Positions 1,247-55,200 of a stretch of DNA of 64,000 bases are shown in pieces. This DNA comes from Siphonodentalium dalli. Its lineage: Eukaryota; Mollusca; Scaphopoda; Gadilida; Siphonodentaliidae. The notes beneath the pieces were generated by a model. The model did not search any database, was not told where the DNA came from, and saw only the letters and a program-made list of their open reading frames with translations. The stretch covers positions 265,725,426 through 265,789,425 of the forward strand of contig CP136063.1 in assembly GCA_032622095.1 (NCBI GenBank), given 5' to 3'. The position numbers and the translations under genes were made by a program. How positions within the stretch are numbered: the first letter of the stretch is position 1; every line of letters starts with the position of its first letter.

Positions 1247-4200
1247 GTGGTCTACTCTTTGACAAATCGATCAATATTTATTTTATTTATTTCCTTCCAA
1301 ATTGGCTGATATTCTGTGCCAGTTTCCGAAATTCGCTAACACATTCCCGGATTCCGGTGAGCGTATGTCTCGCAGCCTTTGGCATATTCACAACCATTTT
1401 GCAATATAACTTCAGTAATTATGTATATAATTCATCAAATACACATTGTTCTAACTTAGTCCTCATGTGACTGGTAGGCAAAGAACAATTGGAGAGAATA
1501 CAGAAGAGAGCAGCTAGGTTCATACTAGTACTAGTAACTGGGGACTACATGTAGTTAGTTGGTGGACCCAACTATTCAAACAGAGCTAGACGCTCTCGAA
1601 TATGGAGCTATGCTCTGATAATAAAAGTCAGATTTGCGGACTAGGGACTAGTATACATCACAAGAGCCTGTGAAGAGGAAGGAACAAATACCAGCATGCT
1701 GCGACAACTACAAACACAAGATTTATTACAGAGAAATACTAAACCAAATGCGGTTGACACTGTACCGCACAACAAACTACTACAGAAAGTTCAAAACTAT
1801 GGAATTAAAGGAAATATATACACCTGGCTCTCATCATTCCTAACCAAAAGACGAATGCGAGTAGTTGTTGAAGGAAGCTACTAATCATATGTCCCAGTTG
1901 ATTCAGGAGTCCCCCAAGGCACAGTATTAGGACCACTCCTGTTCCTGATACATATAAACGACCTACCGACATGTGTAGAATCCCAAGTGAGACTGTTCGC
2001 AGATGACTGCCTGCTATACAGAAACATCACCTCACAGAAAGACCACCACATACTCCAAAAAGATCTAAAGAAGCTTGAAGACTGGGCTGAAAACTGGGGT
2101 ATGAGTTTCAACTCCAAAAAATGTAACATCATGAGCACCAAAAACAAATCATCATACATGTACCAACTGGGAGAACACATACTGGAGAGTGGAGACAACA
2201 GCTGAGACCCCATACCTGGGACTGACCTTTACCAACGACCTGACATGGTCAGCCCATATTAGGAAGACAACAAAGAAAGCAAACTGTGCTTTAGGCCTCC
2301 TAAGACGAAACATCAGACATGCTCCAGAGAAATGTAAAAAGACAGCTTACATCGCTACAGTGAGATCGGCGCTCGAATATGGAGCAGTGGTATGGGACCC
2401 CCACTTAAAGAAAGACATTGACCACCTTGAAAAAGTACAGCGAAGGAGTGCGAGATTCATAAAGAATAATTATAGTCGCCAAGGAACATCAGTCACCACC
2501 ATGCTTGAGGAACTAGATCTAAAACCTCTAGACGAGCGGCGTAGAGAACAGCGTCTCATCCAGTTCCATAAGATAGTTGAGGGGATGGTGCCAGTATTAA
2601 GTGCAAACAACTACCTAACGCCTAAGAAATCAGGCAGGAAGATCACAGCCAAAAAAATTGTTGACTGTGTGACAACAAACATCGTCGAAAAAGAAGAATG
2701 TAAAAATGTAAGAGCCTTCGAGCCACGGCGTACCAGCTGTAACCAATTAAAACATTCTTTCTTTAACAAGACGATCCTGGATTGGAACCAACTGGAAGAC
2801 CGGATCGTGTGCAACAGTGATCCAGAGTTATTCTTACAGGCACTCCGCAACGATGGAATCACTGAACCTGAGGACACAGCACCATCAGAGTCCTCGACGG
2901 AACCAACATCATCCTCCACCCAGTGCGCCTAAAACCAGAATTGGTTACTGCACTGAACCCACTACAGATACCATCGACTCCAGTTGTTTGGCAAGGTAGT
3001 AGTAGACATGCTGGTCCTGGCTATCGACACCAAAGTCCTGTTGAGACTGAAACACAAAAACAAAGCTCGGAAGTTATCTAAACCTTACAAACTAATCGAC
3101 ATGAAGACTCCAGAATGTAAGAGGTGTCGATAGCCGGGACCAGTATGTCTACTACCTTGCCAAATAACTGGAGTCGATGGTCATGCCTTTGACCTTCTAG
3201 TGTTTGTAGTTGTCGCAGCATGTTGGTATTTGTTCCTTCCTCTTGTGATGTATAGTCCCCAGTTATGAACCTAGCTGCTCTCTTCTGTATCCTCTCCAAT
3301 TTGTTCTTTGCCTAAGTGTAAACATATATGGAAAAGGTATGTTCATTGACTAAAAAATTTATTCATTCACAGACCAGACAATTTAAGGAGCAATACAGTA
3401 TGAATATGGATAGAACTGTGGCACGAAAAATGATTTAGTGATTCATAAAGTTCATAATATTATAGCTACATTTGTACTTTAACCCTTTGAACCCCAGCGG
3501 CCGGAATACCGGCCGCTGCGTGAACCTCCATATACCCTAGCGGCCGGTATACCGGCCGCTGATCCGGCCATTATAACGACCGCCACGTGTTTATAGTTTA
3601 TAGCTATGCGATTCAATAACAAATCGACGTCTAAACTCTAGTTATATATATAATATAAAAAGCCTGTTCAAATTATATTTATATGGTGAAGGGCCTCGAT
3701 CGCATATCAAGTTGATTTCTTCGCGCATGCGCAGAGCAGCGATATGCGAAATAAATGGTTTATAGCGTACTTATACACGACATACCCACTAATATATGTT
3801 TAAATGGCCCCATATACATCGGCGGTGGTCAGGGTGTGTATATGGAATGTCTACCCGCTATAGTATCGGGTAGGAATTTATGCGCATGCGCAGAACATAT
3901 ATAGGTTGTAAATGACAAAAACATGCGTTTTAAGCGAAATGTGGTGTTATATATAGGACATATAGCTGCATCATAATTGCAGTTTCTTGCTAATGTCGGG
4001 TAGTTGTCTGGTAACCGTTACTAAGGAGAGATTGGGTGGCAAAGTGTCCTTATATTTTAATGATCATAGAATGGTCCATGCATAACATACATATGTTTGC
4101 ACAGTTTCAAACAGGTGCCACCATTGAACATATACAGCATTATGCGACTAGATATTGTATAAATTAAGGGAACACTACCACGTAATGGTTAGTGCAGTGG

Positions 4201-22200: not shown

Positions 22201-25200
22201 TCAACTGGGGAACTTCAATCTGATCCAAGGTCTCCCATTGTAGTTGAGGTCCAAGCAGAATGAGGTTCCCAGAGGGTGAATTTGGTGATACTAGCCCACA
22301 GTACATGATTTCATCACTAAATTCACCCTCTGGGAACCTCTGGTCAGATACATTATATCCAGGCTTGCCTTGTATCAAGTAACTTTTCTACGTATGACAG
22401 AATATATGGCTGAATCTAAAATATAAATATACAATGTCATTACTAAAACATCTCAATAACGGCAGGAGGCTGTTATTATTATGTTTTTCCCTGATATTGT
22501 GAATGTATCTCATAATTGATATCTTGAGTGTTTTCAATTGGTTAATTCCACCAAACATTCTATATTCCAGAACTTACTCAAATTCTGACATAGGCTAAAC
22601 ATTACTTCAATTACCCTTTGCACATTGACTACAGAGCACACATGAGCTAATGACTAGATGATCTGAACATCGCGATGGTCTCAATCCATAATTTGCATTT
22701 GGCATACCACATTATAGCTATCACTTGAATGTGCGTTTTTTGCCCAAAACTATGTTTTACATCCACTTCCACATCTTGTACCTCAGGGTTAAACTGTAGG
22801 GTCCGTAGAACCTAGGATAGGATGGTGGTATGCAGATTTTGAAATTCCGTGTCAAAAAAACACACTATTTCCTTGCACACCAGAGAATAATGCTGGGCGG
22901 TTGTATTGGGCTATAAAATTACCGCCGTAATTTATCATCTACTAGTATGAACAGAAGATAACCCTGGACACGATATATGTCATGGTAATATCAGTTCAAT
23001 CTAATCCTGAATGCGGAATTACTTTTTATGAAATTATCAACAGGACTATTTTATCAAAGTTAATATTCGCAGCACACGATTATGCATTCCCAATTAAATT
23101 CATAATTTCTGACAGAAATATATGGATGGATTAACAGATGATTGATTTATTGTACAGTAGTATATACCAGGCGATAGCCCGAAATATCTCAAATTCATAA
23201 TCAACCTTGCCTGCGTACATGTACATGCCACAGGTTTTTATGCAACCTGTCGGCCACATGAACTTTCCTGCCAAAACCATACTTTCAATAAAAAAAATTG
23301 TATTTGCCATTGTACCCTAACCCCTGATATTTTTTTATTTGTCGTTTCCCTAATTTTAAGGAATAACTCTTTGAAACTGTTTGAGACGAAATTAAAAAAT
23401 GTTTGTGGCATTGGTGACCAATGATCTGAAACAAATACACAATCGTATCTGTACAAAACAACTCTTTTATTTTGATTTACATTCCCTCTATTGTTTTTGG
23501 CATAAAAAACCGGGTCTGTTTTACTGACCCCTGCCATGGCCTAAACCACCTTTGTCTAGGGGATGATGTTCATAAGCGTCAAAAGACATCACAGACTCTT
23601 GAGGCACCATCCTCCAGGCGAATCCTGTAACTTTTGTCTGTATCATTTCCGGTATACACTTACACTCATTAACAGCTGTTTTCTTCAGGGAAGATGGGTT
23701 CCCATAAGTTTCATTTCCCGATCCCCTGTGCATCCAAGCCTTGAAATAGGGTGTCTGTCATTTGCAGAATGAGGTCCCCAGAGGGTGAATTTAGTGATGC
23801 TACCCCGCATAGCAGGCTAGCATCACCAAATTCACCCTCTGGGGACCTCATTCTGCTGAGGTGTAAGCAAACGACAGACACCCTATTTCAAGGCTTGTGT
23901 GCATCCACACTGTTGTATGTTCCATGTCTTGCGTAATGTTGTTTTATTTTGGTCACAATAATTATGTTCAATCAGGCTAAACATTGACATTTGTTCTCTT
24001 TTTTTTAGCTTTTTTTTTATTTGGTGATATAATTTAAGCATGTCGGCATAAGAAAGATGTATAACAACAAGTTTGTATATTAGCTGCACATTGAAGGAAT
24101 ATGTTTATAAATGAGCTGCACATTGAAGGAATATGTTTATAAATGAGCTGCACATTGAAGGAATATGTTTATACATGAGCTGCACATTGAAGGAATATGT
24201 TTATAAATGAGCTGCACATTGAAGGAATATGTTTCTCATTTCAGTGTAAATCTCTACCATTATGTTTGCGAATCTCACCAAATGGAAAACAGATTGCCAC
24301 TCTGGGAAGTGATAGGAAGGTGAGATTAGTTATAAAACAGATTGCCACTCTGGGAAGTGATAGGAAGGTGAGATTAGTTATAAAACAGATTGCCACTCTG
24401 GGAAGTGATAGGAAGGTGAGATTAGTTATAAAACAGATTGCCACTCTGGGAAGTGATAGGAAGGTGAGATTAGTTATAAAACAGATTGCCACTCTGGGAA
24501 GTGATAGGAAGGTGAGATTAGTTATAAAACAGATTGCCACTCTGGGAAGTGATAGGAAGGTGAGATTAGTTATAAAACAGATTGCCACTCTGGGAAGTGA
24601 TAGGAAGGTGAGATTAGTTATAAAACAGATTGCCACTCTGGGAAGTGATAGGAAGGTGAGATTAGTTATAAAACAGATTGCCACTTTGGGAAGTGATAGG
24701 AAGGTGAGATTAGTTATAAAACAGATTGCCACTCTGGGAAGTGATAGGAAGGTGAGATTAGTTATAAAACAGATTGCCACTCTGGGAAGTGATAGGAAGG
24801 TGAGATTAGTTATAAAACAGATTGCCACTCTGGGAAGTGATAGGAAGGTGAGATTAGTTATAAAACAGATTGCCACTCTGGGAAGTGATAGGAAGGTGAG
24901 ATTAGTTATAAAACAGATTGCCACTCTGGGAAGTGATAGGAAGGTGAGATTAGTTATAAAACAGATTGCCACTTTGGGAAGTGATAGGAAGGTGAGATTA
25001 GTTATAAAACAGATTGCCACTCTGGGAAGTGATAGGAAGGTGAGATTAGTTATAAAACAGATTGCCACTTTGGGAAGTGATAGGAAGGTGAGATTAGTTA
25101 TAAAACAGATTGCCACTCTGGGAAGTGATAGGAAGGTGAGATTAGTTATAAAACAGATTGCCACTCTGGGAAGTGATAGGAAGGTGAGATTAGTTATATA

Positions 25201-28200
25201 ACAGATTGCCACTCTGGGAAGTGATAGGAAGGTGAGATTAGTTATATAACAGATTGCCACTCTGGGAAGTGATAGGAAGGTGAGATTAGTTATAAAACAG
25301 ATTGCCACTCTGGGAAGTGATAGGAAGGTGAGATTAGTTATATAACAGATTGCCACTCTGGGAAGTGATAGGAAGGTGAGATTAGTTATAAAACAGATTG
25401 CCACTCTGGGAAGTGATAGGAAGGTGAGATTAGTTATAAAACAGATTGCCACTCTGGGAAGTGATAGGAAGGTGAGATTAGTTATAAAACAGATTGCCAC
25501 TCTGGGAAGTGATAGGAAGGTGAGATTAGTTATAAAACAGATTGCCACTTTGGGAAGTGATAGGAAGGTGAGATTAGTTATAAAACAGATTGCCACTCTG
25601 GGAAGTGATAGGAAGGTGAGATTAGTTATAAAACAGATTGCCACTCTGGGAAGTGATAGGAAGGTGAGATTAGTTATAAAACAGATTGCCACTTTGGGAA
25701 GTGATAGGAAGGTGAGATTAGTTATAAAACAGATTGCCACTCTGGGAAGTGATAGGAAGGTGAGATTAGTTATAAAACAGATTGCCACTCTGGGAAGTGA
25801 TAGGAAGGTGAGATTAGTTATAAAACAGATTGCCACTCTGGGAAGTGATAGGAAGGTTAGAATAGTTATAAAACAGATTGCCACTCTGGGAAGTGATAGG
25901 AAGGTGAGATTAGTTATATAACAGATTGCCACTCTGGGAAGTGATAGGAAGGTGAGATTAGTTATAAAACAGATTGCCACTCTGGGAAGTGATAGGAAGG
26001 TGAGATTAGTTATATAACAGATTGCCACTCTGGGAAGTGATAGGAAGGTGAGATTAGTTATATAACAGATTGCCACTCTGGGAAGTGATAGGAAGGTGAG
26101 ATTAGTTATAAAACAGATTGCCACTCTGGGAAGTGATAGGAAGGTGAGATTAGTTATAAAACAGATTGCCACTCTGGGAAGTGATAGGAAGGTGAGATTA
26201 GTTATAAAACAGATTGCCACTCTGGGAAGTGATAGGAAGGTGAGATTAGTTATATAACAGATTGCCACTCTGGGAAGTGATAGGAAGGTGAGATTAGTTA
26301 TAAAACAGATTGCCACTCTGGGAAGTGATAGGAAGGTGAGATTAGTTATATAACAGATTGCCACTCTGGGAAGTGATAGGAAGGTGAGATTAGTTATATA
26401 ACAGATTGCCACTCTGGGAAGTGATAGGAAGGTGAGATTAGTTATATAACAGATTGCCACTCTGGGAAGTGATAGGAAGGTGAGATTAGTTATAAAACAG
26501 ATTGCCACTTTGGGAAGTGATAGGAAGGTGAGATTAGTTATAAAACAGATTGCCACTTTGGGAAGTGATAGGAAGGTGAGATTAGTTATAAAACAGATTG
26601 CCACTCTGGGAAGTGATAGGAAGGTGAGATTAGTTATAAAACAGATTGCCACTCTGGGAAGTGATAGGAAGGTGAGATTAGTTATAAAACAGATTGCCAC
26701 TCTGGGAAGTGATAGGAAGGTGAGATTAGTTATTGAGTTTGTTATAATATTTCATACCATTCACCCCTTTTTTTCCACTTTCACTGCAATGACATTCGGT
26801 TGGTCATGCCACAATATCCAGCTGCATTTGAAAAAATTGTTGTATGATTTAGAGATCCTGGGGGGGGGGGGGGGCGGGGGCTGGGAACATCATAGAATAA
26901 AGGGGTAAACCTTGGGGGGGGGGCTGGGAACATCATAGAATACAGGGGTAAACCTGGGGGGGGGATGGGAACATCATAGAATACAGGGGTAAACCTGGGG
27001 GGGGCTGGGAACATATAATAAAGGGGTAAACCTTTCTTCGGTGACATGGACGAAGGTGTGGAATAAATCTAGGCATACATTCCGAAGTGCCACATGGACA
27101 ATTTAGAAGTCAAATAAATCAAACTGAAACAGAAGGTGAGTATGGCTGGTGTCTTTAGAAATTTTGGATGCAAAAGTATACTATACCTCATGTGTATGCA
27201 GACCAGTACCAATAAATCATGCACCCTATGTGTTAAATGTAAAATATTGTTAAGTATTTCAGTGCGGTAGTTTAATGGCTGAAATAAACTGGCAGTTTAA
27301 AATGGGATCACTGTATACGTATGCAGAAGATTTTCGCAAATTTTGAAATTCAGAATGTGCGTAGGCTGCAAAGACTCGAAAGGGTTAATTTTGAAATTTA
27401 GAATTATGTATATAGGATAAGATAATTTTATTTACAATATACACACATGGAAAGTTCAATTACAAATAGATATAATATTAATAGACTATAAATGTATATT
27501 GTTAGGGGTGATATAGTCATGACTGACTCTTCCTATCACCCCTGAATGTGGTGACAGATTATATGATGTTTTTAATAGTCTATGTTAGGGCAATGGTACG
27601 AAAAGTGGTTTCATATGTATAGGAACCTACTTAGTCGATGAGTGGAGCCGAGTAGGAATAATGTGAGTGAGGTTTTGGGATTTTTTAAAATTAACATGTA
27701 TACATAAGTGAAATATAAATACAAGAGGTGTCTGGTGGGTGATTTTTTTTTTAGTTGTATATGAGTAAGTCGGTATAGATTGTAAGTTAAGATGTACAAG
27801 TCTGGAGTAAATAGAGTAAATTTCACTGGTATCATCATTAGTTCTGTTACTCAGTGAGGCGCATTTAAGCAACAAACCATCGCTTTTCGGCACTAATTTT
27901 TCCCTGCAGTTCCACAGGACTGGGAACCTACACCATAATTTGATAAAAAAAAAAAAAATGGCAGCAAGATATCATGCCTGACAATTTCAACATTTGTGTT
28001 TTTTCTATATTTTCCAAAGATATCAGCAAGCTATTAGAATAATGGGCTAACCAAACAACTCATCTCGGGTACTGCCCAAACTGGATATCAAATAGATTTG
28101 TTTTTAACCCTTTGGAGAGTATCTGTAATGTCATATACATGACGTTATGAGTAAATTTAACGTCAACGTCATAGCAATAATTATTAACAAGTTCGGTCAA

Positions 28201-31200
28201 AAGGGTCCAATAATTTGTTTTAATTTAGGTGCATTTTTTGTTAATGTGTGTTATCATAATCGATTGCACTTATCCATTTGGGACATTATATTAATCAAAA
28301 TAACAAATCATTTATAAATCAGAAGATTTTATTGAAGTTTTGTCTACATAAAATAACACTTCCTGAATCAACATATATGTTGTTCTACTCCTCAGCCGAT
28401 AGACGACATATATGTCGTTCTACTCGCCAAAGGGTTAAGGAGATTTTGGCATTCAATTTTCACAACTTTGAATAATGGTGAATGAAGTCACTTGAACACT
28501 TATATCTTCTAACAAACATTTATAGATAGCTCACTCACAATATTTTTTGGATGAGTTAGTTATATAGTTGAAGAAACTGATGAATCCTCCTTTGGATGTG
28601 AGACATCTTATCACCATTTTTGAGCCAATTTTTTTATGACGTAGGTACCCGGCCCTGATTCCAGTGAACTGCTATTGTATCTTTAATACTTGGTTACATG
28701 CCTACTACATTTATACTTGACTATTCCATTCTGTCAGTGGTGCACTGTCCCAGTAGCAATTAATGTAGTAATAGCTGCTAAAAATTTTGACTCCACCACT
28801 TATACAGAAATGCATCGACTCCATTGTGGAACTGCTGCTGTAGGTGATAAAATATAACATTATCAGTGTAATAATGGTTCTAGCAATAAATTCTGAGTGG
28901 TACTTCAAAATGATTTCACTAAATAATGACTGCTTATATTTGATTTGCCATAGGATTACATTGACTCCTCGCCATTTTATTCAATTTATTTTTCAGATAA
29001 GAATTTTCAAGTTTGCGACTGGTAAGCTGACGAAGGTGCTAGATGAGTCTCTCAAACAGTTTACAGAACTACAACAAGTATGCCAGTTTTTTGGGTTAAA
29101 ATAAGGCTTAAAGAGCCAGTTTCTTAAAAGTGGCTGAGTGTTCTTGTCGTATTTGGTGAAACAACCATCCTTTCGAGCGATTGCAGTGGACCTGATATGG
29201 GTGTAGGTAAAAATGATGTTCATAAATTCCCACAGTTCGACAACTGGTCAAGTTCAATAAAATTCCCCGCAGTAATAAGGCTGGTGAGACTTAACAACCA
29301 CTGATCACGCAGTTAACCCATCAACATGCAATTATGTTTAGCATCAAATTTGAAAATGTGATTTTTGAAAAGGGAAAATTTTCCAATTAAGCAACATTCA
29401 GAAGAAGGTTAGAAAATCAACGGGATAATTGACTCCCACAATTTACTGCATTTACCATGTTCTCAATTTGTTAAAAATTTCAATGCAATCAGGCGAATAT
29501 TTAAACATAGGAAATGCAGGGTATTATATGAGGTGGGGGCATACTTTTTTTTTAGGTGTCAGTGGTTAAACTCACAAAAATACTGTCGAAACAGACAAAG
29601 ACAAACATTCTGACAGCTGTTTCTGCTTCCGGCAATGTTATGTCTGCCCATTAAATATAGGTATGCATAGCTCTAATCAATGTTATGTCTGCCCATTAAA
29701 TATAGGTATGCATAGCTCTAATCAATGTTATGTCTGCCCATTAAATATAGGTATGCATAGCTCTGATCAATGTTATGTCTGCCCATTAAATATAGGTATG
29801 CATAGATCTAATCAATGTTATGTCTGCCCGTTAAATATAGGTATGCATAGCTCTAATCAATGTTATGTCTGCCCATTAAATATAGGTATGCATAGCTCTA
29901 ATCAATGTTATGTCTGCCCATTAAATATAGGTATGCATAGCTCTGATCAATGTTATGTCTGCCCATTAAATATAGGTATGCATAGATCTAATCAATGTTA
30001 TGTCTGCCCATTAAATATAGGTATGCATAGCTCTAATCAATGTTATGTCTGCCCATTAAATATAGGTATGCATAGCTCTGATCAATGTTATGTCTGCCCA
30101 TTAAATATAGGTATGCATAGCTCTGATCAATGTTATGTCTGCCCATTAAATATAGGTATGCATAGCTCTGATCAATGTTATGTCTGCCCATTAAATATAG
30201 GTATGCATAGCTCTAATCAATGTTATGTCTGCCCATTAAATATAGGTATGCATAGCTCTAATTAATGTTATGTCTGCCCATTAAATATAGGTATGCATAG
30301 CTATAATCAATGTTATGTCTGCCCATTAAATATAGGTATGCATAGCTCTAATCAATGTTATGTCTGCCCATTAAATATAGGTATACATTGCTCTAATCAA
30401 TGTTATGTCTGCCCATTAAATATAGGTATGCATAGCTCTAATCAATGTTATGTCTGCCCATTAAATATAGGTATGCATAGCTCTAATCAATGTTATGTCT
30501 GCCCATTAAATATAGATATGCATAGCTCTAATCAATGTTATGTCTGCCCATTAAATATAGGTATGCATAGCTCTAATCAATGTTATGTCTGCCCATTAAA
30601 TATAGGTATGCATAGCTCTAATCAATGTTATGTCTGCCCATTAAATATAGGTATGCATAGCTCTAATCAATGTTATGTCTGCCCATTAAATATAGGTATG
30701 CATAGCTCTAATCAATGTTATGTCTGCCCATTAAATATACGTATGCATAGCTCTAATCAATTTTATGTCTGCCCATTAAATATAGGTATGCATAGCCAAG
30801 CCTTGAAATAGGGTGTCTGTCATTTGCAGAATGAGGTCCCCAGAGGGTGAATTTAGTGATGCTACCCCGCATAGTGGGCTAGAATCACCAAATTCACCCT
30901 CTGGGGACCTCATTCTGCTTACACCTCAGCAGAATGAGGTTCCCAGAGGGTGAATTTGGTGATGCTAGCCCGCTATGCGGGGTAGCATCACTAAATTCAC
31001 CCTCTGGGGACCTCATTCTGCAAATGACAGACACCCTATTTCAAGGCTTGTGCATAGCTCTAATCATCTTTCATTTCTTTCACAGATGAAGCAACAAGTT
31101 CCAAATATGGAGTTTGGTAGAAGGTTGGCTATGGAGAGAGAGCTGGAGAAATCAGACTCATATAGCCTATGTAACCTAGGTATAACAAATAGACTTATAG

Positions 31201-34200
31201 ATTAAAGGGACCTATGTAACCTAGGTATATAAAATACACTTATAGATTAAAGGGACTCGAGGTCTTTGAAGTGGGTTAATGCAAAATAACATAAAAGTGT
31301 GTAAAGAAATATCATCAACATGTATATGTAAAAATAGACTGACTTTGTTCTTATTTTCATTGTTAATAACTCTTCAATAATGATACTGTTATGTAAACAT
31401 TACTGTTACAGTGGCATTATCAATCAAAGTCTAATTAATCCAATAAGATACTAAAGTTGGAAAAGGTCAAAGCATCAAGAAATATTATGAATATCATATT
31501 CAGGACAAAATATTTTAACTTACTATGGGATTAGCTGTGAATGTTGAAAAATAACTTTTATCAGTTTTGTTTACATAACATAACAATGGTGTCAACACAC
31601 AACATTTCATTATTGGAGAACTATCAATAAGAATATAAGAACACAGTTGATTTATTTCTCCATATTCTTCTGCATAGTGGACTAGCTAAATTCACCTTCT
31701 GGGGACCTCATTCTGATTAGGCCTCATCTTCTCTGGAAATTTTCTTTATTACAAATGTCTATAGAATTACTTCACGTGGATTCTATTTGTTTTTTAGTTT
31801 AGTTTCTCTATATCCCCAAATTGGCAGACGGCACATTGCATATATAATCGATGTTCCCAATGGGGGTAGATCAAAATATTCACCATTTGGGAACTTCAAT
31901 CTGAGTCTATGTCTCTCATAGCAGATGAGGCCATGCAGAATGAGGTTCCCAGGGATAGTGGGATAGCATCACTCAATTCACCCTCTGGGGACAAAAAGCC
32001 ACTGTTGTAGATATGGTACATGGCAGTCTGACTCCCCAGGATCAGCGGGAACATTTTTAGATATTTTAACCCTTTCATAACTGGAGCATATACAAGAGAA
32101 TGCACTGGTTTACAAGGTCAAGGTAAATATTGTTAGGCCAATGTATTCCCTTATATATGCGAGACTCCCTATGGGAAACTCGCATATATAAGAAAATGCA
32201 TTGGCACAGATTTTTCGCAAAATTTCAGGAAGCTGCGGTCATGGGAGGGTTAATATGAGTTCTTTATACTCAGATGGTTTGGTTTATTGGTGTTTATCAT
32301 CATTTTATCTGCTAGGTCCAAACCTTGACATAGTTTGTCTGTAATTTGCAGAAGAGGTCTCCAGGGGATGAATTAGTGATGCTACCCTGCACAGTGGGCT
32401 AGCATCAATAAACTTACCCTCTGGAAACCTCATTCTGCTAAGGCCTCAACTGCTATGGGAGATATAGAATCAGATTGAAATTCACCAGTTGGAGTTAGTC
32501 ACCTTGATTAGAGTTAGTCACCTTGATTATGCATTTTATCTTCTGCATATTAGGGGATATTAAACTGAATAGAAGGGGAAAAGTAACTAAAAACAATGTT
32601 AATTTGAGACTATAGATACTTCCCAGAAGATGAGGTCTAAACAGAATGAGGTCCCCAGAGGATGAATTTATTGATGCTAGCCCACTGTGCATGGTATGAT
32701 ATCATCACTAAATTCACCCTCTGGGGACCTCATTTTGCAAATATCAAACACACTATTTCAAGGTTTGGCTAACATAGGCTGAGCCACTAGACCCCCCCCC
32801 CCCCTTATTATATGATACTCACTCATACTCTCATGGCAGTTATTTATCATATACAAGTAAACATTGTTTGTGCAGATGATGACAAAAACTTCATTTCCTT
32901 CCAGTATTTGATGAAAGTGGATACTTTATTCTGTACTCAACGTTACTCGGTATCAAAGGTAAGTATACATGAGACATTAGTTATATCCCTGGCAACATCA
33001 TGGGTCGATTCTGAACCGCAAGGTGGAGCCAAGGTGGTCAATAAACCCCATTATTGCAAATATTCCTGAAAGTAAGCAGGATGATGATGATACTTCCAAG
33101 ACTAGACAAGAAAATCAACATCAGATTGTAAAAATTGTTCAAGAGAAGACAGTTAATAATTCCAAGAGTATGTTGTCATTTGAAAGATTATGAAACAAAC
33201 AGGATAATAAAAACCGACCAATACAAATTCTAGTAAATTCCATACGAGTAAGAAACAACGTCATCCAGAACGCCATTAGCTACAATCGTACAAACAAAAA
33301 TACACTCATGAATGAGAATATTTACTTCAGCAGACACTTTTCATGAAGGAATTGTCAAAACAGTATAATCTCCAACAAGAAATGAAAACAAAGATGAAAA
33401 AATTTCCAACTACTATGTTCCGAGTGGAAGGGGAGAGTGTTGTCAAAATGTAATAACAATACATTTGATTGTAACAGGGGACCAAGAGTCAAATGACTGG
33501 TTTCTGAAATAAAGATGATGAAGTAATCAGTTATCAAATTACCATGTCCCCACAACTCTTAGCCTACAACCTCATCTTTGGTGTGGTTTTCATCAGAACC
33601 ATTAATTCGGAAGCTTGAATGAAGCATGTCCGTATAAACCAATTACCTTTATAAATAAATGTTTACTTTAGCAATGAAGCGAGTTCTTCCATCGCCGCCC
33701 CCTGCATCCACTGTTGATAACGGAATCGGAGACTGCCTATAGTCTATGCATGTATTTGAGAAAAAAGTATCTAATTGTAAGATAATTCATATTCTTATCT
33801 TCAGTGATCAACCTACATACCAACAGATGCGTTAAGTTTATAGGGAAGCCTGAGAATCTCCGGTTTGTACAATTAGCTATGTTCCAAGGTGCTGGCAAAA
33901 AGGTGGTCACGAGGGTGGACATGGAGATGGCAGCGAGTGAGAATCCATTGCTTCAAACCACTCCTCCAGACCCTACTCTGGTCTGTTCCGCTTATAAAAA
34001 GAACAGATTCTACTTATTTACCAGAAGAGAAGCAGAAGACACGAAAGGGTATGCTACAATATAATCACGTGTATAAAGGGTATGCTACAATATAATCACG
34101 TGTATAAAGGGTATGCTACAATATAATCACGTGTATAAAGGGTATGCTACAATATAATCACGTGAATGTTTTCTTTAACCCTTTGGTTAGTAGAACGACA

Positions 34201-37200: not shown

Positions 37201-40200
37201 CTTTATAGTCACTAACATCTACTGGGGTTAACTCCTTTATAGTCACTAACATCTACTGGAGTTAACTCCGTTATAGTCACTAACATCTACTGGAGTTAAC
37301 TCCTTTATAGTCACCAACATCTACTGGAGTTAACTCCTTTATAGTCACTAACATCTACTGGAGTTAACTCCATTATAGTCACTAACATCTACTGGAGTTA
37401 ACTCCATTATAGTCACTAACATCTACTGGAGTTAACTCCATTATAGTCACTAACATCTACTGGAGTTAACTCCTTTATAGTCACTAACATCTACTGGAGT
37501 TAACTCCATTATAGTCACTAACATCTACTGGAGTTAAACTGAGCCCTTCTATAATTCTCAACAATTTTTTTTCACCAAACTCAGAATATAAAGTCTCTAT
37601 GATCACCAAACTCAGAATTTAAAGTCTCTATGATCACCAAACTCAGAATTTAAAGTCTCTATGATCACCAAACTCAGAATTTAAAGTCTCTATGATCACC
37701 AAACTCAGAATATAAAGTATCTATGATCACCAAACTCCGAATATAAAGTCTCTATGATCACCAAACTCCGAATATAAAGTCTCTATGATCACCAAACCAG
37801 TCCTTTGATTTTGAGGCGCGCAATTGCCTTGGCGCGCGCGGATTTAAAAACCTGCGAGTTATTAAATGCGCACGCCGAAAATTTCAAATGCGCACCTCAG
37901 AATTTGCAACCAGTGAACAAGATTTTAACAAACAACACACCACTGGTCAAACGCCGATAAGACTATCCACCATGTATCTTTCTCAGCAGTGATGACGCTG
38001 ATTACGAACCTGGTAACTACTAGTAGTAACATACATTGTGATCGCATTATTACTCGATGAATGAAAACAAACAGCCACCTTCTTGACAATGCGTCATTCA
38101 ATCTGGGCACCTAATGATATTGACCAATGGGACAGTCGGAACACTGAAGAGGAATCAAGCGTCATCATTAAAAATAGGCAGCTAATAATATCGACCAATG
38201 AGGACTCGTGTTGCGTCACGTAATCGCCACAGTTAATAATATCGGCCAACGAATGAGCAGTATCACGAAATCGGAAACTTATTTATAATAACACGTGATC
38301 AGCAGATTCTCCCAGATTAAAAATAGAATTGGAAAATCCTCAGAATTCTGCATGCAAACAACTCATTCAGGCGACTTTGTTTCAAATTATTATCTGCGCA
38401 TTTTTAAATCTAGTTTTTGCAAGGGACATGCATTTTTTTTTGTGTGGAAAATTAATAAACGAAGCGGTCCCTAATAATCTCGTACAGGGGGGATTTTTAG
38501 CTGAAAATAAATAATCGTACCCGTACGCTTATTTGGATCCGAGACTGGTGACGAAACCACGATACTATCAAAGCGAAAGAGGGTTGACTCGTCGGATTCC
38601 GGTGAAACTGATTGCGGTAACGATTAGGATTCCACTTCCGAGTTTGAAACTTTAAGCGAGTCTGATGGGCATGCGCTCTCAGACGCGGAAGTCGACTAAT
38701 TACCGTGATCAGATTCATCGGGATTGCCGGATTGTTGATGCTATTATCATGTGGACTATTGTACAATATAAACATATGTTTTTTATTTCTGTTTCTGTTG
38801 CCACACTTAGAATAATACGTGTGTATCATTATACTTGTGTTTGTCTTTATTCAGTAATCATTTCATCGATGTTAATTTGAATTGTGCTCCCTCAAAAAGG
38901 CGCGCGCAAATCCCAAAAGCTCCGAGCGATATACCGCGCACCTACGTTTTCCAAATTCGAAGGACTGCCAAACTCAGAATATAAAGTCTCTATGATCACC
39001 AAACTCAGAATTTAAAGTCTCTATGATCACCAAACTCAGAATATAAAGTCTCTATGATCACCAAACTCAGAATTTAAAGTCTCTATGATCACCAAACTCA
39101 GAATTTAAAGTCTCTATGATCACCAAACTCAGAATATAAAGTCTCTATGATCACCAAACTCAGAATATAAAGTCTCTATGATCACCAAACTCAGAATATA
39201 AAGTCTCTATGATCACCAAACTCAGAATATAAAGTCTCTATGATCACCAAACTCAGAATATAAAGTCTCTATGATCACCAAACTCAGAATATAAAGTCTC
39301 TATGATCACCAAACTCAGAATTTAAAGTCTCTATGATCACCAAACTCAGAATTTTAAGTCTCTATGAGACCCAAACTCATGAGACGTCGATTATAGATTT
39401 GGAAAATTTCTTAAATTGAGTGACAAATACCAGATTATGTGACCTTAAACATTGAAATTTGAGCTAGACTGTCTTGAAGTCTCATCTCCTTCAAAACGAA
39501 TAAATGTATGTTGGTGTTTCATATGCTGTTTTGTTAAGAATACTGAGGAGACCATATGGAGCAAGTGTGGTTGATGTAACTTCAGGGACGTGGTCAGGGG
39601 TGGGGTGTCAAAAGGTGCTATTTTTATAAAATCTCTAAGAGATGGCGGTTATAGATTCGGACAAATTTCTTGAATCCGATGATAAACACCAGAGTTATTT
39701 GACTTTTAACATTGAAATTTTGGGCTAGCTATCTTGGAGCCGCATCTTCTTAAAAACGAATAAATGTATATTGGTGTTTCATGTTTTATGCTGTTTTGTT
39801 AAGAATACTCAGGAGACCATATGGGGCAAGTTTGGTCAATGTAACTTCAGGGACGTCGTCAGGGGAGCACACAATTATATTTTGTTTGCATCTTCACATA
39901 TAACTCAACCATAGGTTATCAGATCTCAATGAAATTTGGTCGGCAATTTCACCATCATTAACTAAGGCTTTCATATGAGCATAAAATGGTGTTGTTCACA
40001 TTTTCTGATTTAGAGTTATTCTTCTTGTTTATTTGGATATATTCATTTTTTTGGGGGGGGGGGGGGGGGGGGAGGGTTTAGCCTTGCAGCTCAAGTTCCA
40101 ACTTGGTATCAGGGTGTTATCAAATCAAATTCCGCCATAAATGAGGAAATTACAAATCAGCATGTATACCCCTTGGAGTCTCTTCACTCATCACAAGAAT

Positions 40201-43200
40201 TAATATATGGTTATAGAATCTACATCAGTAAATTTTATTTTTTATGTAGAAGTATTTCACGTGAACCTTGGGTCATGAATATGCATATAGAGAGTCAAAA
40301 CCGAATCATCCAAGGGCAATAACTCTGACAATATATCTAGGACGAAACCTGCTGTGTGTCAATATATATTCTTCCACAATACCTGTCTATTGGGGACCTA
40401 AGAATCGGTACTTTTCCACAGATTTGAAATCTGATATCGAATCAAGAGGCAGATGTCAATATCGAAATTTAATCTTGAATAGATTAGCCGTCAGTGCATA
40501 GTGTGGGTTTTCAAAGTCTTTTGAAAGAATATAACATCCCATGTGTGATTAACATCGCATGTGGGATTATATTATTTATGATTAGACACCTGCCCTCTCA
40601 TCAAAATATGGCCTTTGATATTTGAATTATTTCAATCAGGGTTCAGTTCGATTTTGACTGACAATATCGACATTGAATTGAATCTTAAATATTTGCAGGG
40701 CCCTATTGTCTGTTGATTGTTGGTTTCATATAATTTCAGGACGCATCCTATACACGAGTATCTGAGAACGTCATCATCCACACAACATTCGGTGACATTC
40801 ACTGCAAGCTGTTTCCAAAGGAGTATGTATGCCGAGTCTTCTCCCGTTTAATTTTTCCGTATTAATCATGTTCAAAGATAATATATACATGTATAAAAGA
40901 GTAGGATTTGTCCATCCATTTGTCTGTCAGTCCCCATTTTTCTCCCAGACTGCTGGTCCGATTTCAACCAAATTTGGTGTGTGGCGACTAGGGAGGTCAT
41001 AACGTGGAAATTCATATTGATCAGGAATCACAAATAGGGTATAAAAGTTAGTTTATATCATGTATTTGGACAGTAATGTGACGGTTGGATGCTGGGGATG
41101 ACACAGAACGTCAGATGAGTTGTTTACGCTGTTTATATTGGCTCAACATATAGACAAAAATGATTACCGTACTGACCCGGTTCAAAGCCCATGCCCGTGT
41201 TTAAGCCCACCCATATCTTTTGGCCAAATTCCATGCACAGGGGTATATTCGTGTTTAAGCCCACCCCAAATTTTGGTCAATTTCAGCAGTGGTAAGTAAG
41301 TATTTGCTAATGATACTCCCCAAATAAATAATCCCAATATAACGGGAAGTATATTCGCAAACGATCGGTGACGGCGAGAATGCCACGAAAAATGCAAAGT
41401 TATACTTTGTAGGTAAGTGATAATATTAAATGAAATAAAATAAAGTGAATCTTAAATTCTCATTTGTTTATTCAATTATACTTCCCGGGGGAAACCAAAG
41501 GTTAACAAACAAACAAGCTTTAAAAACCATGTGCGGCTATGCGCGTGCAATACTTTAATCAAAGCGCACCTGTTCAACTACAGTACTGTAAAAACATATC
41601 TTTCGTGTTCAGTGACAACGTACCGTAGGTATGTTCCTGCATGTGACCAAACACAAAGAACTGGCTTCTTGGTGATGTAAACACACAGTGGGTAAAATAA
41701 TGGAACAGAAGGGGGAACTTCCAAACTACGTCAACGTTATTCACTCGAAACCAAAATAAAGGTTATCAACATCAAACTGCATTTTGTTCACGTTTTATAG
41801 TATAAACAATTCAGGAGCAATGACACTAAATATTCAAACACGTGCTTTTTTCATTCGGCAAACCTCGTCAGATTCCGTCACACCCAGAGGTCACAGGTCG
41901 AGGAGTTCAGAATGGTTCTTTTTTTATACGTTTTAGCAGAAATACAAGCCTTTTGTCAGTACTGTTAAATAATTACACTCACTGGCTTTTGTTAAACATG
42001 CAATTAGTCGCTATTGTAACATCCTCTATGTGGACAATGGATCACGAGTAAAGCGCCGGGTTTATTGTTTTCCTAATCTGATTAAGTCTGAACATTGATA
42101 TAAACTATAGACGTCTTATAGACTATAAGATAAGGGATTTACCCATAACCCACACTGCCGCTTACATAATAGTGTCATTTTAACATGGGAATTTTGGGCA
42201 ATAAAACTACAAGACTTAAAGTGTTATTATAATATTTTAATATTCACATTTAATTGAAAAATTACTTTCTCAAAGTAACTTATAAATACTTACCTTTACT
42301 TAATCTGGAAGCCGGGTAATTTCAAATTGAAACTGATCTAATCTAAAAAATGTTATCATTTGGACTGTTTTAGAATTTGCTGTAGCCTCAGGTGAAGACC
42401 AAGTTAATAATCACCACTCTATTTGATAATCACTACTCTATTTGATAATCACCACTATTTGATAATCACCACTCTATTTGATAATCACCACTCTATTTGT
42501 CGTTAACAGATGTCCAGATGTTGATAATCACCGCTCTATTTGATAATCACCACTCTATTTCTCATTAACAGATGTCCCAAAACAGTGGAGAATTTCTGTG
42601 TACACAGCAGGAATGGTTACTTCAATAGTCACATATTCCATCGAGTCATCAAAAGCTTCATGCTCCAGACGGGAGATCCTCTTGGTAAGTGTCGCTCAGG
42701 GATGTAGTTACAAGACCGGAAAATATGGTGCCAGATATTGGTAGAATGACACTACCGCACAGAGCGGGCTAGCATCACTAAATTCACATTCTGTGGACCT
42801 CATTCTGCTTAGGCCTCATCTTCCCTGGAATGTATCTTTATTATCAGATAGGGCTGGACGATATTAACGAAAATAAAAACCGCGATTTTTGGAAATTAAA
42901 ACCGTGGTTAACGATATAATCGCGTTTTTTTTTAAACAGATACAAGAAACTGAAAACAACTTCTCACTGTTCGCTAGAATCACATCATTGTCATTAGTTT
43001 TGACAAGTTGGCATCGGGAATAACATACCCGTTATGCAACCACTCAACCAGTGACAACCTCATGCTCGATCGATATTCGGAATGAAAAGTAAATTCACTG
43101 GTTAAATTCCGCTATTCGGACAATTTCGTTCCGGTGACTTGACAAATTCTGGTATAATTATACCGGTATTTAATAAAACCATTATCTCGTCTATGCCAAA

Positions 43201-50499: not shown

Positions 50500-53400
50500 C
50501 CCGCACCCACCGGCAGCCATCTTAGATTTTACTCTTTGCATGACTAAATCCTTTGACACGGGCTACAGGTTGTACATTTGGTCTGATCATCATAAAATTT
50601 GTATTGGATGTTAACAATGACATGCAGATGGGAACGAGTCATTTTTGGGTCATTCGGGTAAAAAACATGGCCGCCAGCAGCCATCTTGGATTTTACTCTT
50701 TGTATGACTAAATCCTTTAGCACGGGCTACAGGTCGTACCTTTAGTCTGATCATCATGAAATTTGTCATCGCTGTTGAAATTGGAATGTAGATGGGAACG
50801 AGTCATTTTGGGGTCATACGGACAAAAAACATGGCGTCAGTGGCCATCTTTGATTTCAAAATTTAATCCATTAGCACGGGCCACAGGTCGTACTGTTTGT
50901 CTGATCATCATGAAATTTGTCATGGATGTTAACATTGACATGTAGATGGGAACAGGTAATTTTGGGGTCATTCGGCCCAAAAATATGGCCGCCAGCAGCC
51001 ATCTTGGATTTTACTCTTTGTATGACTAAATTCTTTAGCACGGGCTACAGGTCGTACTTTTAGTCTGATCATCATAAAATTTGTCAAGAATGTTAGTAAT
51101 GACATGTAGATGGGAACGAGTCATTTTGGGGTCATTCGGCCAAAAAACATGGCCGCCAGCAGCCATCTTGGATTTTACTCTTTGTATGACTAAATCCTTT
51201 AGCACGGGCTACAGGTCGTACCTTTAGTCTGATCATCATAAAATTTGTCATGGCTGTTGAAATTGGAATGTAGATGGGAACGAGTCATTTTGGGGTCATT
51301 CGGACAAAAAACATGGCCGCCAGTGGCCATCTTGGATTTCAAAATTTAATCCATTAGCACGGGCCTCAGGTCGTACTGTTCGTCTGATCATCATGAAATT
51401 TGTCATGGATGTTAATATTGACATGTAGATTGGAACGAGTAATTTTGGGGTAATTTGGCCAAAAAACATGGCCACCAGCAGCCATCTTGGATTTTACTCT
51501 TTGCATGACTAAATCCTTTAACACGGGCTACAGGTCGTACCTTTAGTCTGATCATCATGAAATTTGTCATGGCTGTTGAAATTGGAATGTAGATGGGAAC
51601 GAGTCATTTTGGGGTCATTCGGACAGAAAACATGGCCACCAGCAGCCATCTTTGATTTCAAAATTTAATCCATTAGCACTGGCCACAGGTCGTACTGTTC
51701 GTCTGATCATCATGAAATTTGTCATGGATGTTAATATTGACATGTAGATGGGAACGAGTAATTTTGGGGTCATTCGGCCAAAAAACATGGCTGCCAGCAG
51801 CCATCTTGGATTTTACTCTTTGTATGACTAAATTCTTTAGCACAGGCTACAGGTCGTACCTTTAGTCTGATCATCATAAAATTTGTCATGGATGTTAACA
51901 ATGACATGTAGATGGGAACGAGTCATTTTAGGGTCATTCGGCTAAAAAATATGGCCGCCAGCAGCCATCTTGGATTTTACTCTTTGTATGACTAAATCCT
52001 TTAGCACGAGCTACAGGTCGTACCTTTTGTCTGATCATCATAAAATTTGTCGTGAATGTTAATAATGACATGTAGATGGGTACGAGTCATTGTGGGGTCA
52101 TTCGGCCAAAAAACATGGCAGCCAGCAGCCATCTTGGATTTTACTCTTTGTATGACTAAATGCTTTAGCATGGACTACAGGTCGTACGTTGTGTCTGATC
52201 ATCATGAAATTTTGGATGGCTGTTGAAATTGGAATGAAGATGGGAACTAGTCATTTTGGGGTCATTCGGACGAAAAACATGGCCGCCAGCGGCCATCTTT
52301 GATTTCAAAATTCAATCCTTTAGCACGGGCTACAGGTCGTACTGTTTGTCTGATCATCATGAAATTTGTCAAGGATGTTAATATTAACATGTAGATGGGA
52401 ACGATTAATTTTGGGGTCATTCGGCCAAAAAACATGACCGCAGCAGCCATCTTGGATTTTACTCTTTGTATGACTAAATCCGTTAGCAAGGGCTACAGGT
52501 CGTACCTTTAGTCTGATCATCGTAAAATTTGTCATCGATGTTAACAATGACATGTAGATGGGAACGAGTCATTTTGGGGTCATTCGGAAAAAAAAACATG
52601 GCCGCCAGCGGCCATCTTGGATTTCAAAATTCAACCCATTAGCACGGGCTACAGGCCGTACTGTTCGTCTTATTGTCATGAAATTTGTCATGGATGTTAA
52701 TATTGACATGTAGATGGGAACGAGTAATTTTGGGGTCATTTGGCCAAAAAACAGGGCCGCCGGCAGCCATCTTAGATTTACTCTTTGCATGACTAAATCC
52801 TTTGACACAGGCTACAGGTCGTACCTTTGGTCAGATCATCATAAAATTTGTCAAGGATGTTAACAATGACATTTAGATGGGAACGAGTCTTTTTTGGGTC
52901 ATTCGGGCAAAAAACATGGCCGCCAGCAGCCATCTTGGATTTTACTCTTTGTATGACTAAATCCTTTAGCACGGGCTACAGGTCGTACCTTTAGTCTGAT
53001 CATCATGAAATTTGTCATGGCTGTTGAAATTGGAATGTAGATGGGAACGAGTCATTTTGGGGTCATTCGGCCGAAAAACATCGCCGCCAGCAGCCATCTT
53101 TGATTTAAAAATTTAATCCATTAGCACGGGCTACAGGTCGTACTGTTCGTCTGATCATCATGAAATTTGTCATGGATGTTAATATTGACATGTAGATGGG
53201 AACGATTAATTTTGGGGTCATTCGGCTAAAAAACATGGCCGCCAGCAGCCATCTTGGATTTTACTCTTTGTATGACTAAATCATTTAGCACGGGTTACAG
53301 GTCGTACTTTTAGTCTGATCATCATGAAATTTGTCATGGATGTTAACAATGACATGTAGATGGTAACTAGTAATTTTGAGGTCATTCGGCCAAAAAACAT

Positions 53401-54745
53401 GGCAGCCAGCAGCCATCTTGGATTTTACTCTTTGTATGACTAAATCCTTTAGCACGGGCTACAGGTCGTACCTTTAGTGTGATCATCATAAAATTTGTCA
53501 GGGATGTTAATATTGGCATGTACATGTAGATGGGAACGAGTCATTTTGGGGTCATTCGGCCATAAAACATGGCCACCAGCAGCCATCTTTGATTTCAAAA
53601 TTCAATCCATTTAGCACGGGCTACAGGTCGTACTGTTCGTCTGATCATCATGAAATATGTCATGGATGTTAATATTGACATGTTGTTGGGAACGATTTAT
53701 TTTGGGGTAATTCGGCCAAAAAACATGGCTGCCAGCAGCCATCTTGGATTTTACTCTTTGTTTGACTAAATAAATTAGCACGGGCTACAGGTCATAATTT
53801 TAGTCTGATCATCATATAATTTGTCATGGATGTTAACAATGACATGTAGATGGGAACGAGTAATTTTGGGGTCATGCGGCCAAAAAAAACATGGCAGCCA
53901 GCAGCCATCTTGGATTTTACTCTTTGTATGACTAAATCCTTTAGCACAGGCTACAGGTCGTACCTTTAGTGTGATCATCATAAAATTAGTCAGGGATGTT
54001 AATATTGCCATTTAGATGGGAACGAGTCATTTTGGGGTCATTCGGCCATAAAACATGGCCACCAGCAGCCATCTTGGATTTTACTTTTTGTATGACTAAA
54101 TCCTTTAGCACGGGCTACATGTCGTACCTTTAGTCTGATCATCATCAAATTTTTCATGGCTGTTGAAATTGGAATGTATATGGGAACGAGTCATTTTGGG
54201 GTCATTCGGACGAAAAACATGGCCGCCAGTGGCCATCTTTGATTTCAAAATTTAATCCATTAGCACGGGCCACAGGTCGTACTGTCGTCTGATCATCATG
54301 AAATTTGTCATGGATGTTAATATTGACATGTAGATGGGAACGAGTAATTTTGGGGGTCATTCGGCCAAAAAACATGGCCGTCAGCAGCCATCTTGGATTT
54401 TACTCTTTGTATCACTAAATTCTTTAGCACAGGCTACAGGTCGTACCTTTAGTCTGATCATCATGAATTTGTCATGGCTGTTGAAATTGGAATGTAGATG
54501 GGAAAGAGTCATTTTGGGGTCATTCAGACAAAAAACATGGCCGCCAGCAGCCATCTTGGATTTTACTATTTGTATGACTAAACCCTTTAAGCTACAGGTT
54601 GTACCTTTAGTTTGATAATCATAAAATTTGTCATGGATGTTAATAATGACATGTAGATGGGAACGAGTCATTTTGGGGTCATTCGGCCAAAAAAACATGG
54701 CCACCAGCAGCCATCTTGGATTTTACTCTTTGCATGACTAAATCC
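50500..54745 (+). repeat. Satellite array of ~155- and ~164-bp monomers, about 27 copies
   Basis: The core is GCACGGGCTACAGGTCGTAC, CTGATCATCATGAAATTTGT, GACATGTAGATGGGAACGAG, TCATTTTGGGGTCATTCGG and ACATGGCCGCCAGCAGCCAT. Type A monomers have ATTTTACTCTTTGTATGACT, and type B have ATTTCAAAATTTAATCCATT. They follow in a rough A-A-B order (about 19 A, 8 B), which suggests a higher-order unit. Minus-strand frames with RPVARAKG are by-products. Confidence 0.93.
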
Positions 54746-55200
54746 TTTGGCACAGGTTAGACATTTCAATTACATGTAGCACCTTTCCTATTCCTCCATT
54801 TACTGTCAACCATTAAATTATTCCCCTACCTAAGTTGAGCTACAGTGTCATTGACACTTTCATTACCTTTTTAATGTGTACCCATACCATAGAATTCACA
54901 CATGCTTCGATAAATCAACCATTTGTCATCTGATAGAAACCAAATTTGGTATGTGAGTTTCTCAAAAAACTCAAAATACAGATCGACTTTGAATATGGGT
55001 TAGATCTGATTTGTTATACCAGAGTTATGGCCCTATTTCAACTAAGAATTGAACAGATTTGAGGTTTTGATAACACAAGTAGCTTACAATTAATTACCAG
55101 TAATACAAGCTTAACTGCAATAGAGAGACCAGTGAAAATGTTGTCTTATTGAATTAGACTTATTTTTAGCCACCATATATACCACATAGCAGTGAAGCTG
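54746..55200. repeat. Partial dispersed repeat of the ACCAAATTTGGTATG type
   Basis: AATGTGTACCCATACCATAG then AACCAAATTTGGTATGTGAG and AGAGTTATGGCCCTAT follow the order seen at 16.1-18.9 kb, without the CCGT tract. Confidence 0.6.

Follow-up and report, generated by a model that had tools for sequence, protein, structure and literature searches.

In the scaphopod Siphonodentalium dalli, the end of exon 8 of PPWD1 and the start of the following intron form a 48-bp (base pair) unit that is tandemly repeated 51 times, and with it the 5' splice site (donor) of that exon. The array lies in a stretch of 64,000 nucleotides (nt) of contig CP136063.1 (assembly GCA_032622095.1, positions 265,725,426 to 265,789,425, forward strand), here called the window, to which coordinates refer unless another source is named. 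Its length and regularity are far beyond chance. We read it as a minisatellite of the mirage type, in which donor 1 is probably used and copies 2-51 are probably intronic, and we put the probability of this reading at roughly 0.8. Splicing most likely passes over its extra splice sites, which would make the array a harmless satellite and not a device that generates protein variants. Repeats across exon/intron borders are already known as a class from lancelets, and the PPWD1 array is a real, extreme example of this known kind. What is new is the presence of 51 donors at one exon, together with the share of splice junctions affected in this genome, a few percent of those sampled.

The array at the end of PPWD1 exon 8

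Matches to PDB chain 5yzg_2 (E values 3.3e-100 and 2.7e-59) identify the gene as PPWD1. A tblastn search with a human PPWD1 sequence placed 17 exons across 1.1-45.3 kb of the + strand, and exon 8 means the eighth exon found by this mapping. This agrees with the gene named in a first-pass annotation of the window. Exon 8 (24245-24319, + strand; 75 nt, 25 residues), recognized by its homology to the PPWD1 chain 5yzg_2, ends in phase 0 at donor 1 (24319|24320). The array occupies 24286-26733 (+). Tandem Repeats Finder (TRF) gave 98% matches and 0% indels over 51 units of exactly equal length, and exon mapping showed that each unit joins 34 bases from the end of exon 8 to 14 bases from the start of intron 8; the annotation had described both the constant length and the composition in this way. 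The consensus is found in 33 of the 51 units, ten units carry A>T at position 2, seven carry C>T at position 17 and one has two changes. The change at position 2 creates TAA, and all ten units with it are numbered 20 or higher. The change at position 17 (CTG>TTG) is synonymous, and the seven units with it are scattered, the first being unit 9 and the last unit 48.

The donor GGAAG|GTGAGA is present in 50 of the 51 units, unit 33 having GGAAG|GTTAGA instead. Thus, the earlier statement that every unit carries this donor holds for all but one unit, and the description of the donor as strong did not stand, as the exon 8 donor is of moderate, ordinary strength: among 85 survey donors selected by a consensus filter it ranks at the 65th percentile. 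The intron part of unit 1 and copies 2-51 (24320-26733, +), which are probably intronic, contain 49 further intact donors and the altered one of unit 33.

The unit is made of bases from both sides of a border of PPWD1 itself, exonic and intronic, which is characteristic of mirage minisatellites, and it is specific to this locus. A three-unit query against the 2.23-Gb assembly found no second place, with one candidate region and 24 of 24 listed matches inside the array, in a search that can skip repeats. Within this search the unit is not part of a dispersed element, and an origin of the unit from a mobile element was rejected because it was found only here. The two outer borders of the array have no bases in common: ...ATGG precedes the array and the unit ends in ...TTAT, and the unit starts with AAAA... 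and TGAG... follows the array. Therefore, the first duplication needed no microhomology. The copies are observed, and the process behind them may have been as follows. A 48-bp segment that by chance lay across the border between exon 8 and intron 8 would have undergone a tandem duplication, perhaps when filled-in staggered breaks were joined end to end. Slippage or unequal exchange would then have raised the number of copies to 51 with preservation of unit length. Since the copy touching exon 8 stays intact, the gene retains its original donor. Judging from the class as a whole, the spliceosome would pair the acceptor of exon 8 with the first donor, which defines the shortest exon, and the other 50 copies would leave with intron 8. 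The lack of indels is not special, because other intronic arrays in the window (45 bp x 26, 34 bp x 30 and 31 bp x 13) also have 0% indels each; selection on the reading frame, if argued from this feature, was rejected for the same reason.

Tandem arrays are prone to assembly error, and the real genome might lack the array or hold a much shorter one. We consider this very improbable, because the variants are scattered through the array in a non-periodic order and because arrays of the same class, built from different units, stand at many independent loci.

Repeats across splice junctions of other exons and genes

Other splice junctions of PPWD1 also lie in tandem repeats that are unrelated to one another, so that three of 16 donors and one of 16 acceptors are affected in this gene. 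A 45 bp x 2 repeat (31166-31256, +) crosses the donor at 31179|31180 of the exon ending in ...NL, and read-through meets an in-frame stop. The exon ending in ...EDTK has its donor (34048|34049) within a 31 bp x 3.9 repeat (34044-34164, +), whose unit length is not divisible by three. At the acceptor of an exon of the peptidylprolyl isomerase (PPIase) domain, which starts at 42572, a 62 bp x 1.9 repeat (42459-42577, +) places an upstream acceptor copy at 42509|42510.

We located exons of other conserved genes in the same genome (nine contigs), took them with their flanks and called repeats by TRF. The first survey comprised 106 exons: PRPF8, 20 (all regions scored); CLTC, 27 of 28 matches (one weak match elsewhere was dropped); SF3B1, nine; POLR2B, nine (five exons of a near-identical second copy were examined and excluded from the counts); POLR2A, 20 of 32 matches (nine belonged to a second copy and were uncounted, and three weak ones on contigs C3 and C5 were dropped); EEF2, ten; VCP, seven; and an EEF2-like gene on contig C1, four of eight matches, with three weak matches elsewhere dropped. 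A replicate added 25 exons of COPA (14 of 39 matches, elsewhere at 26-36% identity, were dropped) and 17 exons of ATP1A (10 of 27 matches, on other contigs, were dropped). In the replicate, exon length was approximated and the two intronic arrays were counted by hand. The denominators are upper values, as they include one or two terminal exons that have no true donor. A survey of the myosin family, dominated by one expanded cluster, was set aside.

Repeats crossed five of 106 donors in the first survey (PRPF8, 118 and 93 bp; CLTC, 39 bp; POLR2B, 59 and 53 bp) and four of 106 acceptors (PRPF8, 67 and 70 bp; POLR2B, 104 and 102 bp). In the replicate, both crossings were in COPA, at one of 42 donors (41 bp x at least 12) and one of 42 acceptors (58 bp x 2). 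Altogether, outside PPWD1, 6 of 148 donors and 5 of 148 acceptors were crossed, that is, 11 of 296 junctions in ten genes. Both 5' and 3' borders are thus affected in this genome, as is typical of mirages, and a donor-specific process was rejected because acceptors are hit too. This suggests that the same process struck donors and acceptors of other conserved genes. The arrays are distributed as four in PRPF8, four in POLR2B, two in COPA and one in CLTC, with none in POLR2A, SF3B1, EEF2, the EEF2-like gene, VCP and ATP1A.

When each array was counted as one birth, the first survey contained nine junction crossings against 1.40 expected from the density of intronic arrays (p 1.6e-5), and with the replicate there were 11 against 1.88 (p 4.6e-6), about six-fold by a rough null; these Poisson p values are too small because arrays clump by gene. 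A coverage test with 40-bp windows, which included PPWD1 and the second copies of POLR2A and POLR2B, did not find junctions enriched: the counts were 9 of 136 for donors, 8 of 136 for acceptors (one of which, at 9387, is probably chance) and 72 of 812 for intron. The two tests disagree because multi-copy arrays inflate the coverage of introns. In the coverage test, nearby tandem copies were found at 0 of 136 exon centres, as expected if selection removes duplications within exons. PRPF8 also contains a 36 bp x 5.8 array (surveyed piece L015, 526-736) that starts at intron base 2, so that the G of the donor is uncopied and the inner copies have no GT there. This array is a near miss of the same junction-duplicating process.

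Two of the surveyed genes exist as pairs of near-identical copies on one contig. The POLR2A copies lie at C4:90.465-90.51 Mb and, inverted, at C4:90.77-90.79 Mb, and the POLR2B copies at C2:31.36-31.43 Mb and C2:30.87-30.91 Mb. These pairs are either recent segmental duplications or unmerged haplotypes. Identity within pairs is 96.7-99.7% in the main aligned flanks and 87% where an array gaps one pair. The 59-bp donor duplication of POLR2B is present in one copy and absent from the other, the acceptor array of POLR2B has 1.8 copies in one member and 4.9 in the other, and a 33-bp intronic repeat of POLR2A forms an array of three in one copy and no array in the other.

Reading frame, inner copies and the choice of donor

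The first-pass annotation had described the PPWD1 array as a ready-made ladder of isoforms, in which the use of donors 1-19 would insert between 0 and 18 blocks of 16 residues into a WD blade of the protein. Such alternative use, if it occurs, might be regulated. The frame had been read correctly. An open frame runs from 24191 to the first in-frame TAA (25199-25201, +), which stands at the start of unit 20 and closes the ladder, and read-through adds 16 residues per unit. Donors that are intact in 50 of 51 units and of ordinary strength would also suit such a scheme, as would a second array that is likewise open in frame, CLTC 39 bp x 8.1. In CLTC the donor of one exon is repeated eight times in 39-bp in-frame units (LIDQ VLNRTQNTM; surveyed piece L024, 470-784 in gene orientation).

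The other arrays do not share these features. Unit lengths are 48, 45, 31, 93, 118, 39, 59, 53 and 41 bp in the nine donor arrays (some COPA copies have 38 bp) and 62, 67, 70, 104, 102 and 58 bp in the six acceptor arrays. Multiples of three make up 5 of these 15 independent arrays, the share expected by chance, which bears out the caution of the annotation that its multiple of three might be chance. Of the nine donor arrays, only those of PPWD1 exon 8 and CLTC can be read in frame as far as the next donor without a stop, and units across the class are not kept in frame more often than chance; the remaining seven shift the frame or hit a stop, including COPA 41 bp, which is stop-free to the next donor but frame-shifting. 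The confinement of TAA to units numbered 20 or higher is not significant when clustering is preserved, as 6 of 51 rotations of the observed pattern do equally well, and selection on the frame, if argued from the stop-free units 1-19, was rejected on this ground. We conclude that the 16-codon length and the open frame of units 1-19 are probably chance.

Structure predictions for perfectly repeated sequences are known to be over-confident. AlphaFold2 folded exon 8 plus 19 units into a confident beta-solenoid (predicted local distance difference test, pLDDT, 84.8; predicted template modelling score, pTM, 0.85), which would fit a protein lengthened by repeats. The input was a single perfectly repeated sequence, and the prediction was set aside as a repeat artefact that is no evidence for the ladder. 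The expectation of a ladder was thus not borne out: with 11 of 296 junctions outside PPWD1 carrying arrays, most of which would break the frame or meet a stop on use of inner sites, a ladder of isoforms could be drawn from the DNA of PPWD1 and yet finds no support in the class, and we consider it improbable. It is equally doubtful that PPWD1 and CLTC are truly spliced at several identical donors, with blocks of 16 residues (13 in CLTC) that vary with array length between individuals. If this were true, satellite copy number would set protein length through splicing.

The sequences of inner copies point to the copy that works. We compared residues by eye with typed human proteins in the 11 independent arrays outside PPWD1. 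In eight of them, inner copies are changed at residues where the exon-contiguous copy is identical to human. In PRPF8, I>V occurs in every one of 13 inner copies, A>T is also seen, and four of the five inner acceptor copies within the examined piece have NS>DL; inner copies of POLR2B have P>S, G>stop, R>C, and L>F with A>D; and among 11 full inner copies of COPA, three have C>H and one has C>R. Inner donors are mostly intact (PRPF8, 12 of 13; COPA, 11 of 11), and inner splice sites are lost in POLR2B (GT>GC) and in one of the 13 PRPF8 copies; the acceptor arrays of POLR2B were left out of this scoring. Read-through into the PRPF8 93 bp x 14 array at once gives CAT AGG TAA. PRPF8 was found at a single locus among the matches listed, and so was the COPA gene with the 41-bp array. 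Since the PRPF8 and COPA proteins would be ruined by the use of inner donors and those matches gave no second locus for either gene, a good part at least of their splicing must go through the outer donor. The evidence from POLR2B is weaker, as this gene has two near-identical copies. With most arrays, the use of inner sites would disrupt a conserved protein, and this argues that the sites defining the shortest exon win here.

It might be thought that junction repeats are kept by selection as spare sites for robust splicing. This would explain why arrays stand at 11 of 296 junctions when about 1.9 are expected from intronic births, and the mostly intact inner donors of PRPF8 and COPA are consistent with it. 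Some inner sites, however, are lost, the excess falls in clumps on a few genes, and arrays at junctions may stay detectable for longer owing to the conservation of exons. We therefore hold selected redundancy to be decidedly improbable.

Precedents, neighbouring repeats and implications

Border-spanning repeats have been reported in lancelets. PMC3087553 gives the name 'mirages' to tandem repeats of exon/intron borders that occur in globin genes and had been seen before in Adh3; they lie at both 5' and 3' borders, and haplotypes differ in copy number (six versus three units in BflGb6). The Adh3 data and reverse transcription PCR of the globins given there suggest that mirages leave splicing undisturbed. 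PMC3902484 adds TnC and PGBD5 and states that the mirages of Adh and TnC give no aberrant mRNAs. The lancelet cases (Adh3; the globins BflGb6 and BflGb9; TnC; PGBD5) resemble the PPWD1 array in spanning a border, in units of tens to about 160 bp and in duplicated splice signals. They differ in that one PPWD1 donor has 51 units where the BflGb6 haplotypes have six and three, in that a few percent of the sampled junctions are hit in S. dalli, and in that splicing is reported in lancelets whereas PPWD1 is known from DNA alone. The normal splicing reported for the lancelet genes also speaks against a ladder of isoforms.

PMC2812944 reports that novel introns may arise from variable minisatellites that stand at exon/intron borders in human segmental duplications. 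These repeats, with units of about 30 bp in about four copies, are alike in that minisatellites alter gene structure at borders; they are unlike the present arrays in that they were found through the transcripts of paralogues, many of them alternative, whereas here conserved genes are seen in their DNA. Intron gain by tandem genomic duplication of an exon segment bearing AGGT, reviewed in PMC3443670, also copies splice signals. In PPWD1 the segment already spans an existing border and lengthens an existing intron, and no new intron is needed. Minisatellites inside worm introns are the subject of PMC4039745. Alternative tandem 5' splice sites likewise place several donors after one exon; those are defined by transcripts, and the donors here are near-identical satellite copies. 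Our literature search, mostly at title level and with few subscription papers, gave no title naming border-spanning satellites in another invertebrate, and we do not claim their absence from print.

A milder alternative is that splicing is leaky, with donor 1 used mostly and donors 2-6 or later ones in a few percent of cases, giving extended or nonsense-decayed mRNA, so that array length would slightly tune PPWD1 output. In its favour, 49 of the 50 inner copies retain an intact donor with the sequence of donor 1, and exons of up to about 300 nt fit exon definition. The alternative transcripts at border repeats of human duplicates (PMC2812944) point the same way, while the lancelet globin and Adh data of PMC3087553 suggest no interference. 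We regard a leak as unlikely, although it deserves some weight.

Several points weigh against our view that the PPWD1 array is a mirage-type minisatellite spliced at donor 1. Classical work often finds that the intron-proximal of two equal donors is preferred. Exons ending at donors 2-5 would be 123-267 nt long, within the normal size range. The absence of TAA variants from units 1-19 has a hypergeometric probability of 0.005, apart from the rotations considered above. The copies at exon 8 share the exon residues except for the stop variant and are too alike for the test of inner-copy decay, and for this reason the case for donor 1 in PPWD1 is drawn from the class. Within that class, three of the 11 arrays have no residue change (PRPF8 67 bp, with four silent base changes; CLTC; COPA 58 bp). 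A purely sequence-blind process leaves the excess of junction crossings over intronic births (11 versus about 1.9) unexplained. Finally, alternative transcripts in which the repeat stays exonic exist for 66% of intron modifications in the human segmental duplications of PMC2812944. This slightly weakens our reading and slightly raises both the ladder and the leak.

Repeats are abundant elsewhere in the window, where arrays with units of at least 25 bp cover about 27% (17,163 of 64,000 bases). A 32 bp x 5.1 array in intron 7 (24071-24234, +) stops 10 bases short of exon 8. Exon 9, also of phase 0, lies at 28997-29077 (+), and intron 9 contains a 45 bp x 26 array (29633-30796) in which most units have a donor-like TATAG|GTATGC and which begins about 560 bases beyond the real donor. 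In another PPWD1 intron, one 31-bp minisatellite unit occurs at 37572-37797 and again at 38968-39379, flanking a unique stretch of about 1.2 kb, as if it belonged to, or had captured, a mobile segment. A palindromic element (GCAGAATGAGGTCCCCAGAGGGTGAATTT...) is present at 23763-23880, at 30826-31021 and at about 46.5 kb, the last seen from translation only. It is frequent across contigs (at least 107 matches for a query holding part of the element), often takes the form of a near 103-bp double copy, and is present also in surveyed pieces L005, L013, L044, L052 and L102. Fragments in intron 1 (1645-3311) resemble a reverse transcriptase of the non-LTR (long terminal repeat) type, as named by eye, and a 164-bp satellite of about 26 copies (50513-54753) lies downstream of PPWD1.

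The wider point worth following is how common tandem duplication of splice junctions is in this genome, at a few percent of those sampled. The excess at junctions, about six-fold by the rough null, raises the question of whether tandem duplication is favoured near exon borders, where it would be a possible route to longer or new introns. Together, the near-identical 51-fold donor of PPWD1 and these duplicated borders form a natural experiment on which of several equal splice sites the spliceosome picks.

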